A stretch of 64,000 nt of DNA from Bacillota bacterium (GTDB lineage: Bacteria > Bacillota > Bacilli > Alicyclobacillales > SLC66), in contig JAJZCW010000005.1 in assembly GCA_021828865.1 (NCBI GenBank), positions 62,001 through 126,000 on the forward strand, written 5' to 3'. How positions within the stretch are numbered: position 1 is the stretch's first letter; every line of letters begins with the position of its first letter. The notes beneath the pieces were generated by a model. It was not told where the DNA came from. It saw nothing but the letters and a program-made list of their open reading frames with translations, and made no database searches. Shown here one piece after another: positions 15,678 to 23,011 of this stretch. Position numbers and translations under genes: made by a program.

Positions 15678-15691
15678 GATGTAGTAACTTT

Positions 15692-15765
15692 GCACCCGTA
15701 GCTCAGTGGACTAGAGCACTGGCCTCCGGAGCCAGGTGTCGCAGGTTCGAATCCTGCCGGGTGCA
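15692..15765 (+). tRNA. tRNA-Arg (anticodon CCG)
   Basis: A full cloverleaf folds by eye. The acceptor stem is GCACCCG with CGGGTGC and the D stem GCTC/GAGC. The anticodon stem CTGGC/GCCAG encloses loop CTCCGGA with anticodon CCG, and the T arm is GCAGG-TTCGAAT-CCTGC. The discriminator base is A at 15765. The 3' CCA is not encoded (TCCA follows), so it is added after transcription. It reads CGG arginine codons and is a single gene with its own promoter and terminator. Confidence 0.95.
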
Positions 15766-15780
15766 TCCACATAACGTAGT

Positions 15781-15807
15781 AAAAAGCAGGCATTTAGCCT
15801 GCTTTTT
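15781..15807. terminator. Bidirectional terminator between tRNA-Arg and the RHH gene
   Basis: AAAAAGCAGGC (15781-15791) and GCCTGCTTTTT (15797-15807) form a perfect 11-bp stem with loop ATTTA. It has T-runs on both strands, serving the tRNA on plus and the gene ending at 15859 on minus. Confidence 0.85.
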
Positions 15808-15858
15808 ACTTATTAATTATGATTCTTATGAGGTGCACTTTATCTCACCTGTATCTTT

Positions 15859-16248
15859 TTAGGAGGATTTCCTCAACAGCATCGCATAATTTTCTGATGC
15901 ATGCTCCAGCACCGCCCTAGATAGTACGGCTCTCCAGTCCAGCTCAGCGGCTTCACAACGTCTCTTCAATTCACCCATCAACTCTTTAGAAGTCGCAATC
16001 GTCCATGTGTGATCTTTGGAATAGCGTCCCGCTTGCCAATTAGAAATTGGTTGATCAATGAGTTGTTCGATAACTTCTGCTAGCATGCTCTTAATGCTTT
16101 TACCTTCGCGTTCAAGTGCATTCCTGATCATAGCCTCGGACTCAGCGCTAATTGGCAATTTGCACGTAGTTGCATTTTGCTGAGTGGTTCTCATCTGCGG
16201 TGTATAGTACCCTCGTCCATAAAAAGGCATCCTATTCATATGGTTCAT
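15859..16248 (-). CDS. Putative tandem ribbon-helix-helix DNA-binding protein
   Basis: A 129-residue protein with no family I can name for certain. After an aromatic/Arg N terminus (about 1-28) it shows two similar units, each a short strand followed by two helices. Unit 1, about residues 29-66, starts KLPISAESEAMI and ends MLAEVIEQLID. Unit 2, about 80-117, starts WTIATSKELMGEL and ends AVLSRAVLEHA. This strand-helix-helix pattern is that of MetJ/Arc (CopG) DNA-binding folds, here possibly fused in one chain. A dyad overlaps its promoter, suggesting autorepression. Start may be 16248 or the second ATG at 16239. DNA binding is inferred. Confidence 0.55.
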   Translation of the reverse strand: MNHMNRMPFYGRGYYTPQMRTTQQNATTCKLPISAESEAMIRNALEREGKSIKSMLAEVIEQLIDQPISNWQAGRYSKDHTWTIATSKELMGELKRRCEAAELDWRAVLSRAVLEHASENYAMLLRKSS

Positions 16249-16288
16249 CCACTTCCCAATTTATTTCTCATCAAACTCTAATGATATC

Positions 16289-16321
16289 TTGTATTCTAAT
16301 TCGAAATACAAAAAGATCCAA
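16289..16321 (-). promoter_or_regulatory. Promoter of the RHH-like gene with overlapping operator dyad
   Basis: On the minus strand TTGGAT (16321-16316), 17 bp and TAGAAT (16298-16293) form a sigma-A promoter. An inverted repeat TTGTATT (16289-16295) / AATACAA (16305-16311), with a 9-nt spacer, lies over the spacer and -10 box. It would block RNA polymerase if bound. Transcription would start near 16286, about 38 nt before the gene. Confidence 0.6.
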
Positions 16322-16434
16322 TCGGACTATTTCATTTTAGTTTTTATTAGGCAAAGGAGATGAATGAGATGTATTTATAATCAAAAAGTTAATCGGTACT
16401 ATCATTAGACGGATAGACCATTTTTTTCAAAACT

Positions 16435-16465
16435 AAAAACCCCTCGAGCAATCACGAAGGGTTTT
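16435..16465 (-). terminator. Terminator of the hook/rod-like gene
   Basis: AAAACCCCTCG (16436-16446) pairs with CGAAGGGTTTT (16455-16465) with one mismatch. On the minus strand the stem is followed by a T-run. It lies 30 bp after the stop codon of the flagellar-type gene. Confidence 0.7.
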
Positions 16466-16494
16466 CATTTGCAAGATTAGTTATTCAGATTAGT

Positions 16495-17727
16495 TTAGAC
16501 ATTATTGATCATGAACTGATTCATTGAATTGACTGTGCTTATTACTTTAGAATTTGCCTCATATCCAGTTTGCGCCACGATCATATTACTCATTTCTTTC
16601 GTTAAGTCCACATTGGACCCTTCAAGGAATCCTTGACTGACACTCTGACTTTGTGCAGGATTGGCTTGACCATAAACGGGTGAGCCCGAGTTAGCTCCCG
16701 CAGTATATAGATTGTTCCCTTCTTTGATTAACCCAGAGGGATTATTAAAGTTCGCCAACGGCAGGTAATACGTGAGTCCACCGTCCACCGTCAATGTGCC
16801 ATCCGGCGCCACCGTAAACGACCCCTGCGTAAGCGTGGCAATCGTATGATCGCTTGTGACAATACCTCCAGTAGTTGTACCGCCAAACGAAATCAATGAT
16901 CCCGGCGAAATTTGGATCGTCTGCGTACCCGTCGCTGATGTAGTGATAATCTCCGTGACAGATCCCTGCATTCCAGCCGTCTTTGTGCCTCCAGATGTCG
17001 TGCCTGTCACCAACATCCCACCTACCAGAGTGACATTAGTAATTCCTGTTGAAGTCAAGTTAATGGATTGCGGAGTGGACGATCCGGATGCCGTATAATC
17101 AATCGTCAAGCCGGAGTCGGTTGAACTGGTAAAATCAGTATTGGTCTGATCTAAGTTAACGGGCACCAAGGGATTGTTCACACTAAAACTATTAGTTCCG
17201 GTTCCAAACGTTGTACTGTACGGAAATGAAGCCTGCGTGCCACTGATTGGATATGACGCCCCCATCAAATAATACCCGTTCGGCGTCACCATATTCCCAT
17301 TGGCATCCACTGAGAAATCTCCGGCTCTTGTATAAAAATTGGAATTATCCGATTGACTAGGAGATACCACGAAAAATCCACTTCCCGCAATCGCGAGATT
17401 GTTGCTATTGCCCGTTTGCTCCAAAGGGCCTTGTGTAAAGTCATTATAAATTGAAGCCACCTGCACACCAAGGCCAACCTGAGATGGATTAATGCCCCCT
17501 ACACTTGAAGATCCAGACGATGAATAATTTGAAACCTGTTGTCCCGCAATTGAAGCGCCAGCTGGAGCAGATCCTTGATTTACCGTTTGACTTAAAATAT
17601 CCGAAAACTCAGCAGTTGCGGCTTTATACGCCGTTGTATTCTCGTTCGCGATATTATTACCCACCACATCCAGCATTTGCTGAAACGCATCCATTCCGCC
17701 AGCGGCGGTGTTCAATGAAATGGTCAC
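16495..17727 (-). CDS. Flagellar hook/basal-body rod family protein (FlgE/FlgG-like)
   Basis: A 410-residue axial flagellar-type protein. The N terminus shows AAGGMDAFQQMLDVVGNNIANENTTAYK split over residues 8-35, the rod-domain signature shared by FlgE, FlgF and FlgG. LAIAGSGFFVV lies at about 126-136. The C terminus has the matching segment ending with SNMIVAQTGYEANSKVISTV. In between is a Ser/Thr/Gly-rich variable domain (about 150-330). The size suits a hook protein. The start is GTG at 17727 with AGAGAGGA upstream. No other flagellar gene lies in the window, so it is isolated. Its role as hook, rod or moonlighting surface protein is open. Confidence 0.85.
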   Translation of the reverse strand: MTISLNTAAGGMDAFQQMLDVVGNNIANENTTAYKAATAEFSDILSQTVNQGSAPAGASIAGQQVSNYSSSGSSSVGGINPSQVGLGVQVASIYNDFTQGPLEQTGNSNNLAIAGSGFFVVSPSQSDNSNFYTRAGDFSVDANGNMVTPNGYYLMGASYPISGTQASFPYSTTFGTGTNSFSVNNPLVPVNLDQTNTDFTSSTDSGLTIDYTASGSSTPQSINLTSTGITNVTLVGGMLVTGTTSGGTKTAGMQGSVTEIITTSATGTQTIQISPGSLISFGGTTTGGIVTSDHTIATLTQGSFTVAPDGTLTVDGGLTYYLPLANFNNPSGLIKEGNNLYTAGANSGSPVYGQANPAQSQSVSQGFLEGSNVDLTKEMSNMIVAQTGYEANSKVISTVNSMNQFMINNV

Positions 17728-18078
17728 TGGATATCCTCTCTTCCGCTCATAAATTTCTTCAAATCAACATATGTAGACAAAATACCCCAACGCAACATAT
17801 TAATATATCTATTTTCCCATACTATAATTCGTAAGGTATCATAATGGGGCGATTTCGTCAATAAAAGACAAAATACTATGAAGTTTGTGGCGTTTGAGAC
17901 TTGTACCTTTCATCAATCTTTTTTGTATTTTTTCCAATGTCAATTTCTCTTCTTTTTCATTTATAATTGCATGATAAGGCAATCGAATTACCATGTTTTA
18001 TATAATTTTGTGAATGGAATTCTGCATTTTTTCATCAGCTTTAAATTCATTATGCAAAGCTGGAGAGGGGCACCCCCT
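17728..18078. other. AT-rich divergent intergenic region
   Basis: This 351-bp stretch separates the flagellar-type gene from the CorA-like gene. It holds a possible plus-strand promoter, TTAATA (17800-17805), 17 bp, TATAAT (17823-17828). A pyrimidine-rich segment (17905-18050) is open in frame with the downstream gene but reads as a Phe-rich, atypical peptide with no ribosome site at its first ATG (17878). I treat it as a leader, not coding. No RNA gene or repeat was recognised. Confidence 0.45.
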
Positions 18079-19593
18079 GTGTGGAGAGTACAAGAAGCTT
18101 GGACGAAATTGGTATACCCTTTCGCGCTTGATATCCGCGATGATTCCACATTCTCACAATTGGCAGACTTCATCGCTTCCTTTCAGGTGTCCATCATCTC
18201 TGAACCGACACCAGTACATATGTGGCGCGAATTCCAATACTATGATTCGGATCTAGACAATATGGCCCCATACGTCAAACGTTACATGCGATTGCCGCAA
18301 AACCAGCGGCGCTTTGTGCTAGCCGACTCCGTGATCCAACTGTTTTCCGATATGCTAACGGAACGAATGAGCAATGCGGATGTAGGATTCAAAATTGCAG
18401 AAGTCGATCTTTACTTATTTTTTAATGGCGTGGGATTCATCGTACTGGAAACACAACCCGTGGTCTCTTATGAGACTTTGTTGCAAGTGGAATGGATTGA
18501 GAATTTGAATTCGGATTTGGCATCGCTAACCAGAAAAACTCCGATCAGACAACGCAAAAGCCAAGAAGTATCTCGTCAAAACAGCAATATTCCCGTCTGG
18601 TTTCATGAGTTTACCGCAGATGGCATGTTAAAGAGTTTAGCATTCGGGTATCCCGTTACCATTCAATCTTTGATACAGCATGTTTTCATGGCATGCTTCA
18701 ATACCTGGGAAGGTTCAGGAGAATGGCACCCCATGCTCGATACGTTTCTGATTGTATATGGAGCGGTGTTATTGAAAAAACCTGACGATGGAGAAGAGTG
18801 GAACATCCATACCGATTTCATGGATTTTGCCACAAAGCACATCACAGTATTAAGAAAAACCCTCACATCCAACAATTCGAACCACTATGTGAGGCACATT
18901 TTGGATGATTGGGAGCACAATTACATACCCTATCACAATGTCATCCATACGCAGTCCCTTGAAGGTGGGTTCGTGATGGCGTTCGACAATGGAACTCCTC
19001 ATTTTCAGGGTTACCGCTCCCCCGCTATGCGCTCATTTCGAACCAATTATTTTTATATGATGCTACTGGCCATGCACCAGCGAATGAGTATCCTGCTTTA
19101 CGCCATGGCCGCTGCCGATGCTGCACTGTCCAATAATCGAGCGCAAAAACTTCGGCTTTTAAGAGAGCATATGTATGATTTTACGTCACGGTGTTATTTC
19201 AGTCAGGCATCCGTTAGTGAAGAAAGGGACCAACTATATCGCAGATGGCAGCGAGTGTTCAATGTGTCCCAGATGTACGAAGAAATGAAAGAGGAAATTA
19301 AAGAGATCGACGATTATATGGCCGGTCTTACAAAAGAAAAGGAACTCGAAAACAAAGAAAATGAAATCCGTCAGGAAGCCCAACGGACACAACTGTTTAG
19401 CTGGATTTCGTTTATTTTCCTTCCGGTCACCATGGTTCTTTACATCATACAAGCTAGTCCTATCGTGGCAAAATGGATTAATTTCAAGCAAGATCCGATT
19501 GGATCATCACTACTCATCATGATCATGATCGCTGCAGTCGTCCTTTTAGCGGAAGTATTATACCGAACGTATAAGAGGATCAAGAGCTCATAA
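18079..19593 (+). CDS. CorA-like two-transmembrane protein of unknown function
   Basis: About 504 residues from GTG 18079, chosen because GGAGAGGGG lies about 10 nt upstream. Reading from ATG 17878 or 18052 would add a Phe-rich leader without a site. The first 400 residues are a soluble domain I cannot assign. Then comes a charged coiled coil (about 405-450; KEEIKEIDDYMAGLTKEKEL) and two C-terminal helices (about 452-470 and 482-499). This layout (large cytoplasmic domain, long helix, two TM) resembles CorA ion channels, but the GMN signature between the helices is absent. Ion transport is therefore doubtful. It lies 63 bp upstream of hemQ on the same strand. Confidence 0.6.
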   Translation: MWRVQEAWTKLVYPFALDIRDDSTFSQLADFIASFQVSIISEPTPVHMWREFQYYDSDLDNMAPYVKRYMRLPQNQRRFVLADSVIQLFSDMLTERMSNADVGFKIAEVDLYLFFNGVGFIVLETQPVVSYETLLQVEWIENLNSDLASLTRKTPIRQRKSQEVSRQNSNIPVWFHEFTADGMLKSLAFGYPVTIQSLIQHVFMACFNTWEGSGEWHPMLDTFLIVYGAVLLKKPDDGEEWNIHTDFMDFATKHITVLRKTLTSNNSNHYVRHILDDWEHNYIPYHNVIHTQSLEGGFVMAFDNGTPHFQGYRSPAMRSFRTNYFYMMLLAMHQRMSILLYAMAAADAALSNNRAQKLRLLREHMYDFTSRCYFSQASVSEERDQLYRRWQRVFNVSQMYEEMKEEIKEIDDYMAGLTKEKELENKENEIRQEAQRTQLFSWISFIFLPVTMVLYIIQASPIVAKWINFKQDPIGSSLLIMIMIAAVVLLAEVLYRTYKRIKSS

Positions 19594-20470: not shown

Positions 20471-23011
20471 TCAAGGCTTTGAAGAGGAACCCTTCTGATT
20501 ATTGGAACCACTTCCTGTGCCAGAACTGTTACCTGTTGTAGTACCTGAACTCGTAACATTACCAGTACCTGAAGTGGATCCTGTGCTTGGGGTGCCACTT
20601 CCTGTGGCGGGACTCGTTCCTGTTGAAGACCCTGATCCTGTTGTCGATTTAGATCCAGTCGTAGAACTACTAGATCCCCCGATTCCACTAGACCCAGTCA
20701 CACCTCCTTGACCCTTCGAGGTACTTGTACCGCTTGTCGAGCTACTGCCTTGCCCTGTTGAACCAGTGCTACCAGTGGATTTGCCTGTGCCTGTCGAGCC
20801 AGTATTCCCGGTAATTCCAGTTGTGCCTGTATTGCCCGTGTTGCCTGTGGTTCCTGTTGATCCTGTGGTTCCCGTAGATCCTGTGGTTCCCGTGTTGCCA
20901 GTAGTGCCTATAGAGCCATTCCCATTAGTGGTGCTGCCAGACGATGTTCCTTGAGACGATCCGCCTGTTAAGCTATTCGACTTGGCACTGCCAGTTATCT
21001 GCTTACTCTTCGGTGTAGGTTGTGTGACCACCGGAAATGCTGGCCCAGCTGCCACTGGAACATTGAAGGTGGCGCCATTTGGCGTAAGTCCGTTGCGAAT
21101 GATTTGAGAAAACATCTGCGGAGGAAAGTAACTCGTCCCATCCGGTAACATATTCTGCATATTGGTAACTGGGTATCCTTCCCAAATAGCTCCTACAACG
21201 GTCGGTGTAAAAGCGGCTACCCACAGATCGCTGTCCGTATAGTTGGTATAACCCACGGAGCCTGTCTTACCAGCGACTTCAAATCCTGGTGCAGCAGCGC
21301 CTGCCACGATGCCATTCACCACATTGTTGCGGAGCAGCCCCACCATCTGATTAGCGGTGGAAGTCGACATCACCGTCACCGGTTGTGGTACATACTGATA
21401 GATCAATTCTCCGTTTGGCCCGACAATCCGGTCAATAATGTGTGCCGGCATGCGAACGCCGTTATTGTCAAACGAAGCATAGGCATCGGCAAGGATCAGT
21501 GGAGAAATACCGGGTGTTACATTACCAAGTGCGATGGTCAGGTTTTGGTTGGCTGGACTCGATAAATTAATGCCGGCTTTTTCAGCAAAATCAATTCCTG
21601 TCTGAATTCCAATCTTGTCAAGCAACCATACGGCTGGTGCATTCCATGATTGGGACAGCGCCCATCGAAGCGTCACGTAGCCATTTGCCGTTGGATGGGT
21701 TTCCCAGTCGTGAACGGTATACGACCCAAAACTCAATTGATTGTTCTTTCCATCTAACAACGCAGAATTTGCGTTCCACTGCCCTGTTTGGATAGCTGGC
21801 CCATACACAGTAAGTGGCTTCATTGCAGAACCTGGTGAACGCTGCGTATCCGTCGCATAGTCAAACCCGCGAAACGTATATTGATTCTGCGTTCCCCCGA
21901 CCAGTGCCATGATGCCTCCAGTGTGTGGATCAATAAAGACCGCTGCACCCTGTATTTGTTCCGTGGCCCCTTTGATGGGAGTTGGATAATTGGTGGGATT
22001 ATTCACTGCATTATAAACCGCCAACTGCAATTTGGGATCAAGCTCCGTGTATATCTTCACCCCGCCTTGTGTCAGCAATTGTGTACTAAGGTGAATGTTT
22101 TCCAGTTCCTGATATAAGTAATCGCGATAATAGGCATATTGGGCAGGAATTCCCGTCCAGTTCTGCGTTGCCGCATGCAATTGCAGCGGCAGATTCTGTG
22201 TCTTTACCATCACCGAATACGAGATGTAATGCTGTTCATACATCCGTTGCAGTACAAAATTACGTCTGGTAAGCGCCAGTTGAGGATTGACAAGCGGGTC
22301 GTAAAGTGAAGGCGCCTGCGGAAGACCTGCTAGAAGCGCCGACTGCGCCAATGACATTTTCTTCATTTGAGTGGGACGAAGGCCAAAATATGCATAGGCC
22401 GCTTGCGCAATTCCAGTAGCACCGTTGCCAAAATACACATGGTTTAAGTACATATCCAAAATCTCATTTTTACTATATTGCCTGGAAATCTGGATGGACA
22501 AAAAAAGTTGCTCGAGCTTCCGTTGAATGGTCTTGGCGTGACTTAAGAAGACGACATCGGCCAATTGCTGTGTGATCGTGCTGGCACCCTGCGCCGCCTG
22601 CCTATGTAACAAATCATAGTAGGCCGCACGCAAGTAACCTTTTACACTAAACCCATAATTATGATAGAAATTAGCGTCTTCTGTGGCGATCAACGCCTTT
22701 TGAACGTTACCCGGTATCTGGGATAATGGAACAGGATCCACTCCCGCAGGTTGAATCTTAAATATCAAATTGCCATAACGATCATAGACTTCTGTTGGTA
22801 GGCTGGTTTGTTCCAGTTTAGAGAGATTGAACTTCGGCATATCGTAGACCCAGACAAATCCTGTCACAAGCCCTACAAACACAATAGCGCTTAAAAGAAC
22901 CGCCCACGTCACTTTCACCCATCGGGGAACTCTCTTCTTTGGTGATTTTGGTGCCTGGGCTTTCTTATTAGACGCGTTTTTGCTTTGCACAGGCTTCCCC
23001 GTCTTTTTCAT
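20471..23011 (-). CDS. Class A penicillin-binding protein with low-complexity tail
   Basis: An 846-residue bifunctional peptidoglycan synthase. It has a basic cytoplasmic N terminus (1-32) and one TM anchor (about 33-55). The GT51 glycosyltransferase (about 75-250) carries ATEDANFYHNYG with the catalytic Glu and QGASTITQQL. The transpeptidase (about 330-640) carries SPGSAMK (SxxK), SWN (SxN) and GKTG (KTG). From about 665 the chain is a Gly/Ser/Thr-rich tail of some 180 residues with a G-X-T repeat block, presumably extending into the wall. ATG at 23011 follows AAAGGAGGTAAG. It is monocistronic, convergent with hemQ. Confidence 0.95.
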   Translation of the reverse strand: MKKTGKPVQSKNASNKKAQAPKSPKKRVPRWVKVTWAVLLSAIVFVGLVTGFVWVYDMPKFNLSKLEQTSLPTEVYDRYGNLIFKIQPAGVDPVPLSQIPGNVQKALIATEDANFYHNYGFSVKGYLRAAYYDLLHRQAAQGASTITQQLADVVFLSHAKTIQRKLEQLFLSIQISRQYSKNEILDMYLNHVYFGNGATGIAQAAYAYFGLRPTQMKKMSLAQSALLAGLPQAPSLYDPLVNPQLALTRRNFVLQRMYEQHYISYSVMVKTQNLPLQLHAATQNWTGIPAQYAYYRDYLYQELENIHLSTQLLTQGGVKIYTELDPKLQLAVYNAVNNPTNYPTPIKGATEQIQGAAVFIDPHTGGIMALVGGTQNQYTFRGFDYATDTQRSPGSAMKPLTVYGPAIQTGQWNANSALLDGKNNQLSFGSYTVHDWETHPTANGYVTLRWALSQSWNAPAVWLLDKIGIQTGIDFAEKAGINLSSPANQNLTIALGNVTPGISPLILADAYASFDNNGVRMPAHIIDRIVGPNGELIYQYVPQPVTVMSTSTANQMVGLLRNNVVNGIVAGAAAPGFEVAGKTGSVGYTNYTDSDLWVAAFTPTVVGAIWEGYPVTNMQNMLPDGTSYFPPQMFSQIIRNGLTPNGATFNVPVAAGPAFPVVTQPTPKSKQITGSAKSNSLTGGSSQGTSSGSTTNGNGSIGTTGNTGTTGSTGTTGSTGTTGNTGNTGTTGITGNTGSTGTGKSTGSTGSTGQGSSSTSGTSTSKGQGGVTGSSGIGGSSSSTTGSKSTTGSGSSTGTSPATGSGTPSTGSTSGTGNVTSSGTTTGNSSGTGSGSNNQKGSSSKP
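20792..20908 (-). repeat. Collagen-like G-X-T triplet repeat in the PBP tail
   Basis: Thirteen uninterrupted Gly-X-Thr triplets are encoded on the minus strand from 20908 down to 20792: GTT, GNT, GTT, GST, GTT, GST, GTT, GNT, GNT, GTT, GIT, GNT, GST. The 9-bp units vary at synonymous sites but keep the frame. The pattern resembles the GPT/GXT blocks of bacterial collagen-like proteins such as BclA. Confidence 0.8.

Follow-up and report, generated by a model that had tools for sequence, protein, structure and literature searches.

The 129-aa open reading frame (ORF) P0001, which lies beside a tRNA-Arg(CCG) gene in the 64,000-nt stretch of DNA analyzed here (hereafter the window), is read as encoding a chromosomal, stand-alone ribbon-helix-helix (RHH) regulator made of a single chain, and as an accessory gene of its locus, with a probability that we put at about two in three (Table 1). 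Judging from a structural model, its two RHH units would pair with each other inside one chain, and a single P0001 chain would present the two-stranded DNA-reading sheet that is otherwise a dimer's job, as in TraY, DndE, and AvtR. The protein would probably regulate transcription locally, in the simplest case at its own promoter, with autoregulation a default guess drawn from the analogy with AvtR. DNA binding by P0001, its target site, and its autorepression we only infer.

Table 1. Features of the P0001 locus, in window coordinates.
Feature	Position	Strand	Remarks
tRNA-Arg(CCG)	15691..15769	+	Adjoins the P0001 slot
Perfect 14-bp stem with T runs	15778..15810		Between tRNA-Arg and P0001; likely bidirectional terminator
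P0001, 129-aa ORF	15859..16248	-	Predicted tandem-RHH DNA-binding protein
Predicted RHH unit 2, residues 81-127	15868..16008	-	Strand 81-87, helix 88-100, long helix 105-127
Predicted RHH unit 1, residues 26-64	16057..16173	-	Strand 26-32, helix 35-48, helix 52-64; Arc-like GKSIKS turn
N-terminal tail, residues 1-23	16180..16248	-	Basic, pI 10.3; low model confidence
Dyad TTGTATT-N9-AATACAA	16289..16311		Candidate operator, chance-compatible
Candidate sigma-A promoter TTGGAT-N17-TAGAAT	16316-16321 / 16293-16298	-	8/12 matches
Terminator hairpin of the upstream FlgE/F/G-type gene	16428..16471	-	z = -4.0
Flagellar FlgE/F/G-type gene	16495-17727		Upstream neighbor of P0001; ends in a strong terminator hairpin

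Coding Status and Predicted Fold

The 129-residue chain described in the original prediction is present at its reported place. Its codon usage exceeds that of 99.7% of wrong-frame chunks taken from real genes of the window and falls at the 10th percentile among those genes themselves; since this places it among real genes, P0001 is very probably a gene in its own right. The start codon is uncertain, with candidates at M1 (16248), M4 (16239), and M19 (16194). The residues of the basic N-terminal tail are probably disordered, and the folded core carries a slightly acidic net charge, which counts against the preferred reading.

Structure prediction of the full-length protein with AlphaFold gave a poor model (pLDDT 48). 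When the tail was removed and the core (residues 24-129) was folded without an alignment, one of five models reached moderate confidence (pLDDT 67.5, pTM 0.53), and the other four were poor (46-53). The best core model adopts a strand-helix-helix-strand-helix-helix topology, with the strand-helix-helix unit predicted twice and RHH proteins as its best fold matches. A Foldseek search of the PDB with this model returned 410 matches, the best 10 of which are chains of the F-plasmid relaxosome (E-values of 5e-3 to 0.13, probabilities of 0.92-1.00). Chain E of the relaxosome structure 9f0x was identified as TraY (131 aa) by a PDB sequence search, in which a query holding one TraY unit, itself verified on annotated plasmids, matched it twice; the other two of the three TraY copies (PMC12117103) are assumed to be chains F and G. 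The next relevant PDB matches are a permuted single-chain Arc (1u9p, match 12) and DndE (4lrv), and matches in BFVD include named RHH proteins from archaeal viruses with a probability of 1.00. The rmsd to TraY is high, at about 7-9 Å over the aligned columns. With the poor full-length model, too, the first four matches are TraY chains, at non-significant scores.

Because TraY, single-chain Arc, and DndE recur as fold matches, the earlier reading of two successive RHH units in one chain is supported by the core model and by Foldseek, although sequence profiles do not establish it. On this modeled structure, a tandem RHH fold for P0001 appears quite likely. If so, RHH proteins of this kind can go unnoticed by Pfam, by NCBIfam, and by an RHH profile made for the purpose, yet surface when the core alone is folded.

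Sequence Comparisons and Distribution

At the sequence level, P0001 has no match in Pfam or NCBIfam, and its matches to Arc-like and regulator entries in PHROGs fall below threshold (E = 0.084 for the Arc-like entry). The Arc and CopG families (PF03869 and PF01402) have no match above the curated cut-off in P0001 or anywhere else in its own genome. A home-made profile, compiled from P22 Arc and 30 natural RHH_1/Arc sequences, did not separate P0001 from its shuffles and recognized neither unit. Profile searches against the CopG and Arc families, proposed along with the original prediction, lent it no support.

Individual comparisons with Arc were more suggestive for the first unit. Along P0001, the hydrophobic pattern of Arc scores highest at residue 26 (32/40), a value reached by 46 of 5,000 shuffles, and residue 79 is among the next best positions (28/40). 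Unit 1 resembles Arc with a shuffle p of 0.005 and carries GKSIKS where Arc has GRSVNS; the corresponding comparison of unit 2 with Arc was not significant against shuffles. In a comparison of P0001 with itself, the best offset near the expected spacing was 53, matching the helix spacing in the model, and an internal sequence repeat was not significant across all offsets.

These results bear on the possibility that P0001 is not an RHH protein at all, its RHH shape being imposed by AlphaFold on an unrelated small protein of alpha/beta or helical type or on a spurious ORF. The failure of the profiles, the moderate confidence of a model computed from a single sequence, and the lack of P0001 homologues in the sets searched would all fit such an account, which is nevertheless rather unlikely given that the Foldseek matches converge on single-chain RHH proteins, that the Arc-like hydrophobic pattern and the GKSIKS turn stand in the correct register, and that the coding statistics favor a genuine gene.

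Homologues of P0001 were sought in overlapping genome sets amounting to approximately 1,000 whole genomes overall, by searches sensitive to close and moderately distant relatives only. Besides P0001 itself, none was found in 60 relatives, 18 genomes of the family, or 59 of the order, nor in whole-genome samples of the class (399) and phylum (398), nor in phages or plasmids; pattern-seeded scans of contigs from GTDB and from viruses likewise gave nothing more. Within these sets, P0001 is so far known from one genome only. One weak match in another genome, G014 (E = 0.005), lies out of frame inside another long ORF and contains internal stops, and was dismissed as chance.

Genomic Context

Probably, P0001 forms a separate, one-gene transcription unit, because the upstream FlgE/F/G-type gene ends in its own terminator and a further stem follows tRNA-Arg. 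An Rfam scan found nothing but the tRNA. In a genome of the same genus (G002), the order of ComER, L,D-transpeptidase, tRNA-Arg, and flagellar genes is identical, and a YgaP-like membrane gene stands where P0001 is found here. Across the family, the ComER and L,D-transpeptidase side, 5' of tRNA-Arg(CCG), is kept; among the relatives read (loci L024-L037), the gene that comes next on the 3' side varies from genus to genus. The differing occupants mark this slot as variable and make P0001 a probable accessory gene, either recent or transferred. The flanking genes inspected around P0001 are chromosomal.

Several other features of these loci were recorded. A 571-aa ORF (17878-19593, plus strand) is without a Pfam match and has a clear relative in a same-genus genome (L024), and a penicillin-binding protein with a transglycosylase domain (20471-23011, minus strand) ends in a long, Gly/Ser/Thr-rich, collagen-like C-terminal tail. 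In G014, three equal-scoring L,D-transpeptidase matches (L005, L019, and L020) occupy two places on one contig and a second contig, a triplet that is possibly a duplication or an assembly artefact. Small ORFs 3' of tRNA-Arg look HicB-like by eye at L028 and L036, and at L036 also HicA-like.

The location next to a tRNA gene and the identity of the best fold match are both relevant to a second alternative, in which P0001 would be a TraY- or VirC2-like accessory factor of a relaxosome or oriT, left behind by a mobile element and now without a partner. A position 3' of a tRNA gene, in a slot of changing content, and a TraY-like predicted fold are compatible with such a remnant. Against it, PF03432, the only relaxase family searched, has no member in the genome, the flanking genes examined are chromosomal, no conjugation genes were seen among them, and P0001 lacks a match to the TraY Pfam family, and the proposal is accordingly judged quite improbable. 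An antitoxin-like or defense-related RHH protein of the HicB, RelB, or DndE type would draw on the hicB/hicA look-alikes read by eye in the same slot of two relatives and on DndE among the fold matches. This assignment is very improbable, as the slot holds no partner gene, P0001 matches no Pfam family, and the DndE family (PF08870) has no match in the whole genome, P0001 included.

The Dyad and Candidate Promoter

The original prediction placed a dyad over the promoter of P0001 and proposed that the protein represses itself. The exact letters of the dyad are present, its arms are perfect, and it overlaps the candidate promoter; the promoter letters (TTGGAT/TAGAAT) are likewise present, though eight candidates in the upstream region, this one included, reach 8/12 or more. 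When the 100 bp upstream of P0001 is shuffled with its dinucleotide composition kept, 18% of the products contain a perfect dyad with 7-bp arms and a spacer of 0-15; for shuffles of the 246-bp intergenic region the figure is 37%. The same region also holds another perfect inverted pair, TCTAATGATA / TATCATTAGA (16277-16286 and 16400-16409, 113 nt apart).

Genome-wide, 19 sites match the dyad with at most two mismatches, as against 11 for a reversed control. Nine other near-match loci were examined: seven lie inside ORFs, one overlaps an ORF end, and one is intergenic, and no convincing regulon emerged from the search. At L040, a site with one mismatch is situated in a 54-bp gap, approximately 25 bp upstream of a gene.

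In its specific form, self-repression would involve two single-chain units bound on both arms of TTGTATT-N9-AATACAA, covering the -10 element and the spacer. A perfect dyad overlapping a plausible promoter speaks for this arrangement, as does AvtR, a tandem-RHH protein that reportedly represses its own gene (PMC5569661). The frequency of comparable dyads in shuffled sequence, the number of promoter candidates, the position of most examined near-matches inside ORFs, and the lack of homologues in which conservation of the dyad could be followed all weigh against it, and the arrangement is regarded as doubtful. As the dyad is no better than chance expectation and the promoter competes with seven other candidates, autorepression of P0001 through this dyad is possible but unsupported. 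The broader proposal that P0001 represents a new, sequence-unrelated lineage of single-chain RHH regulators, chromosomal, bacterial, and without mobile-element partners, which would repress itself through a pseudo-dimer on each dyad arm and which one species either gave rise to or recently acquired, is unlikely.

Comparison With Known Single-Chain RHH Proteins

The preferred reading, a stand-alone chromosomal regulator with two RHH units in one chain, has precedents. Natural one-chain RHH pseudo-dimers are already published (TraY, PMC12117103; DndE, PMC10853773; AvtR, PMC5569661), one of them, AvtR, reportedly self-repressing, and the earlier description of P0001 as an unusual regulator was overstated.

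F-plasmid TraY, described as a monomer that folds like an RHH dimer, is present in three copies in the relaxosome (PMC12117103). It resembles P0001 in length and, as far as the predicted units of P0001 go, in having two RHH units approximately 53-56 residues apart in one chain, and is its best fold match, whereas the two proteins share only approximately 15% sequence identity; by the sequence tests applied, P0001 falls outside the TraY family. In DndE, a single chain contains two tandem RHH units and extends at its C terminus into a helical segment (PMC10853773), an arrangement that P0001 is predicted to share; DndE, however, functions together with DndD and genes for DNA modification. From Acidianus filamentous virus 6, AvtR is a tandem RHH monomer and a transcription regulator for which repression of its own gene has been reported (PMC5569661). 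It shares with the predicted P0001 two tandem RHH units per chain and differs in being archaeal-viral; no sequence relationship between the two was found, and the AvtR structure (4hv0) is absent among the best 50 of the 410 PDB matches to the P0001 core. Arc of phage P22 resembles unit 1 in its strand-helix-helix register and in its G-R/K-S-V/I-N/K-S turn, but in nature an Arc chain contains a single unit and the protein acts as a dimer, and the profile similarity is not significant. By the sequence tests run, P0001 is outside the DndE, Arc, and CopG families.

If the preferred reading is correct, P0001 adds a bacterial chromosomal case to an architecture that the cited papers describe from conjugation (TraY, PMC12117103), DNA modification (DndE, PMC10853773), and archaeal viruses (AvtR, PMC5569661), and would leave the understanding of RHH regulators unchanged. 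P0001 would be, at most, a new and sequence-divergent example of the one-chain RHH pseudo-dimers that these three proteins represent.
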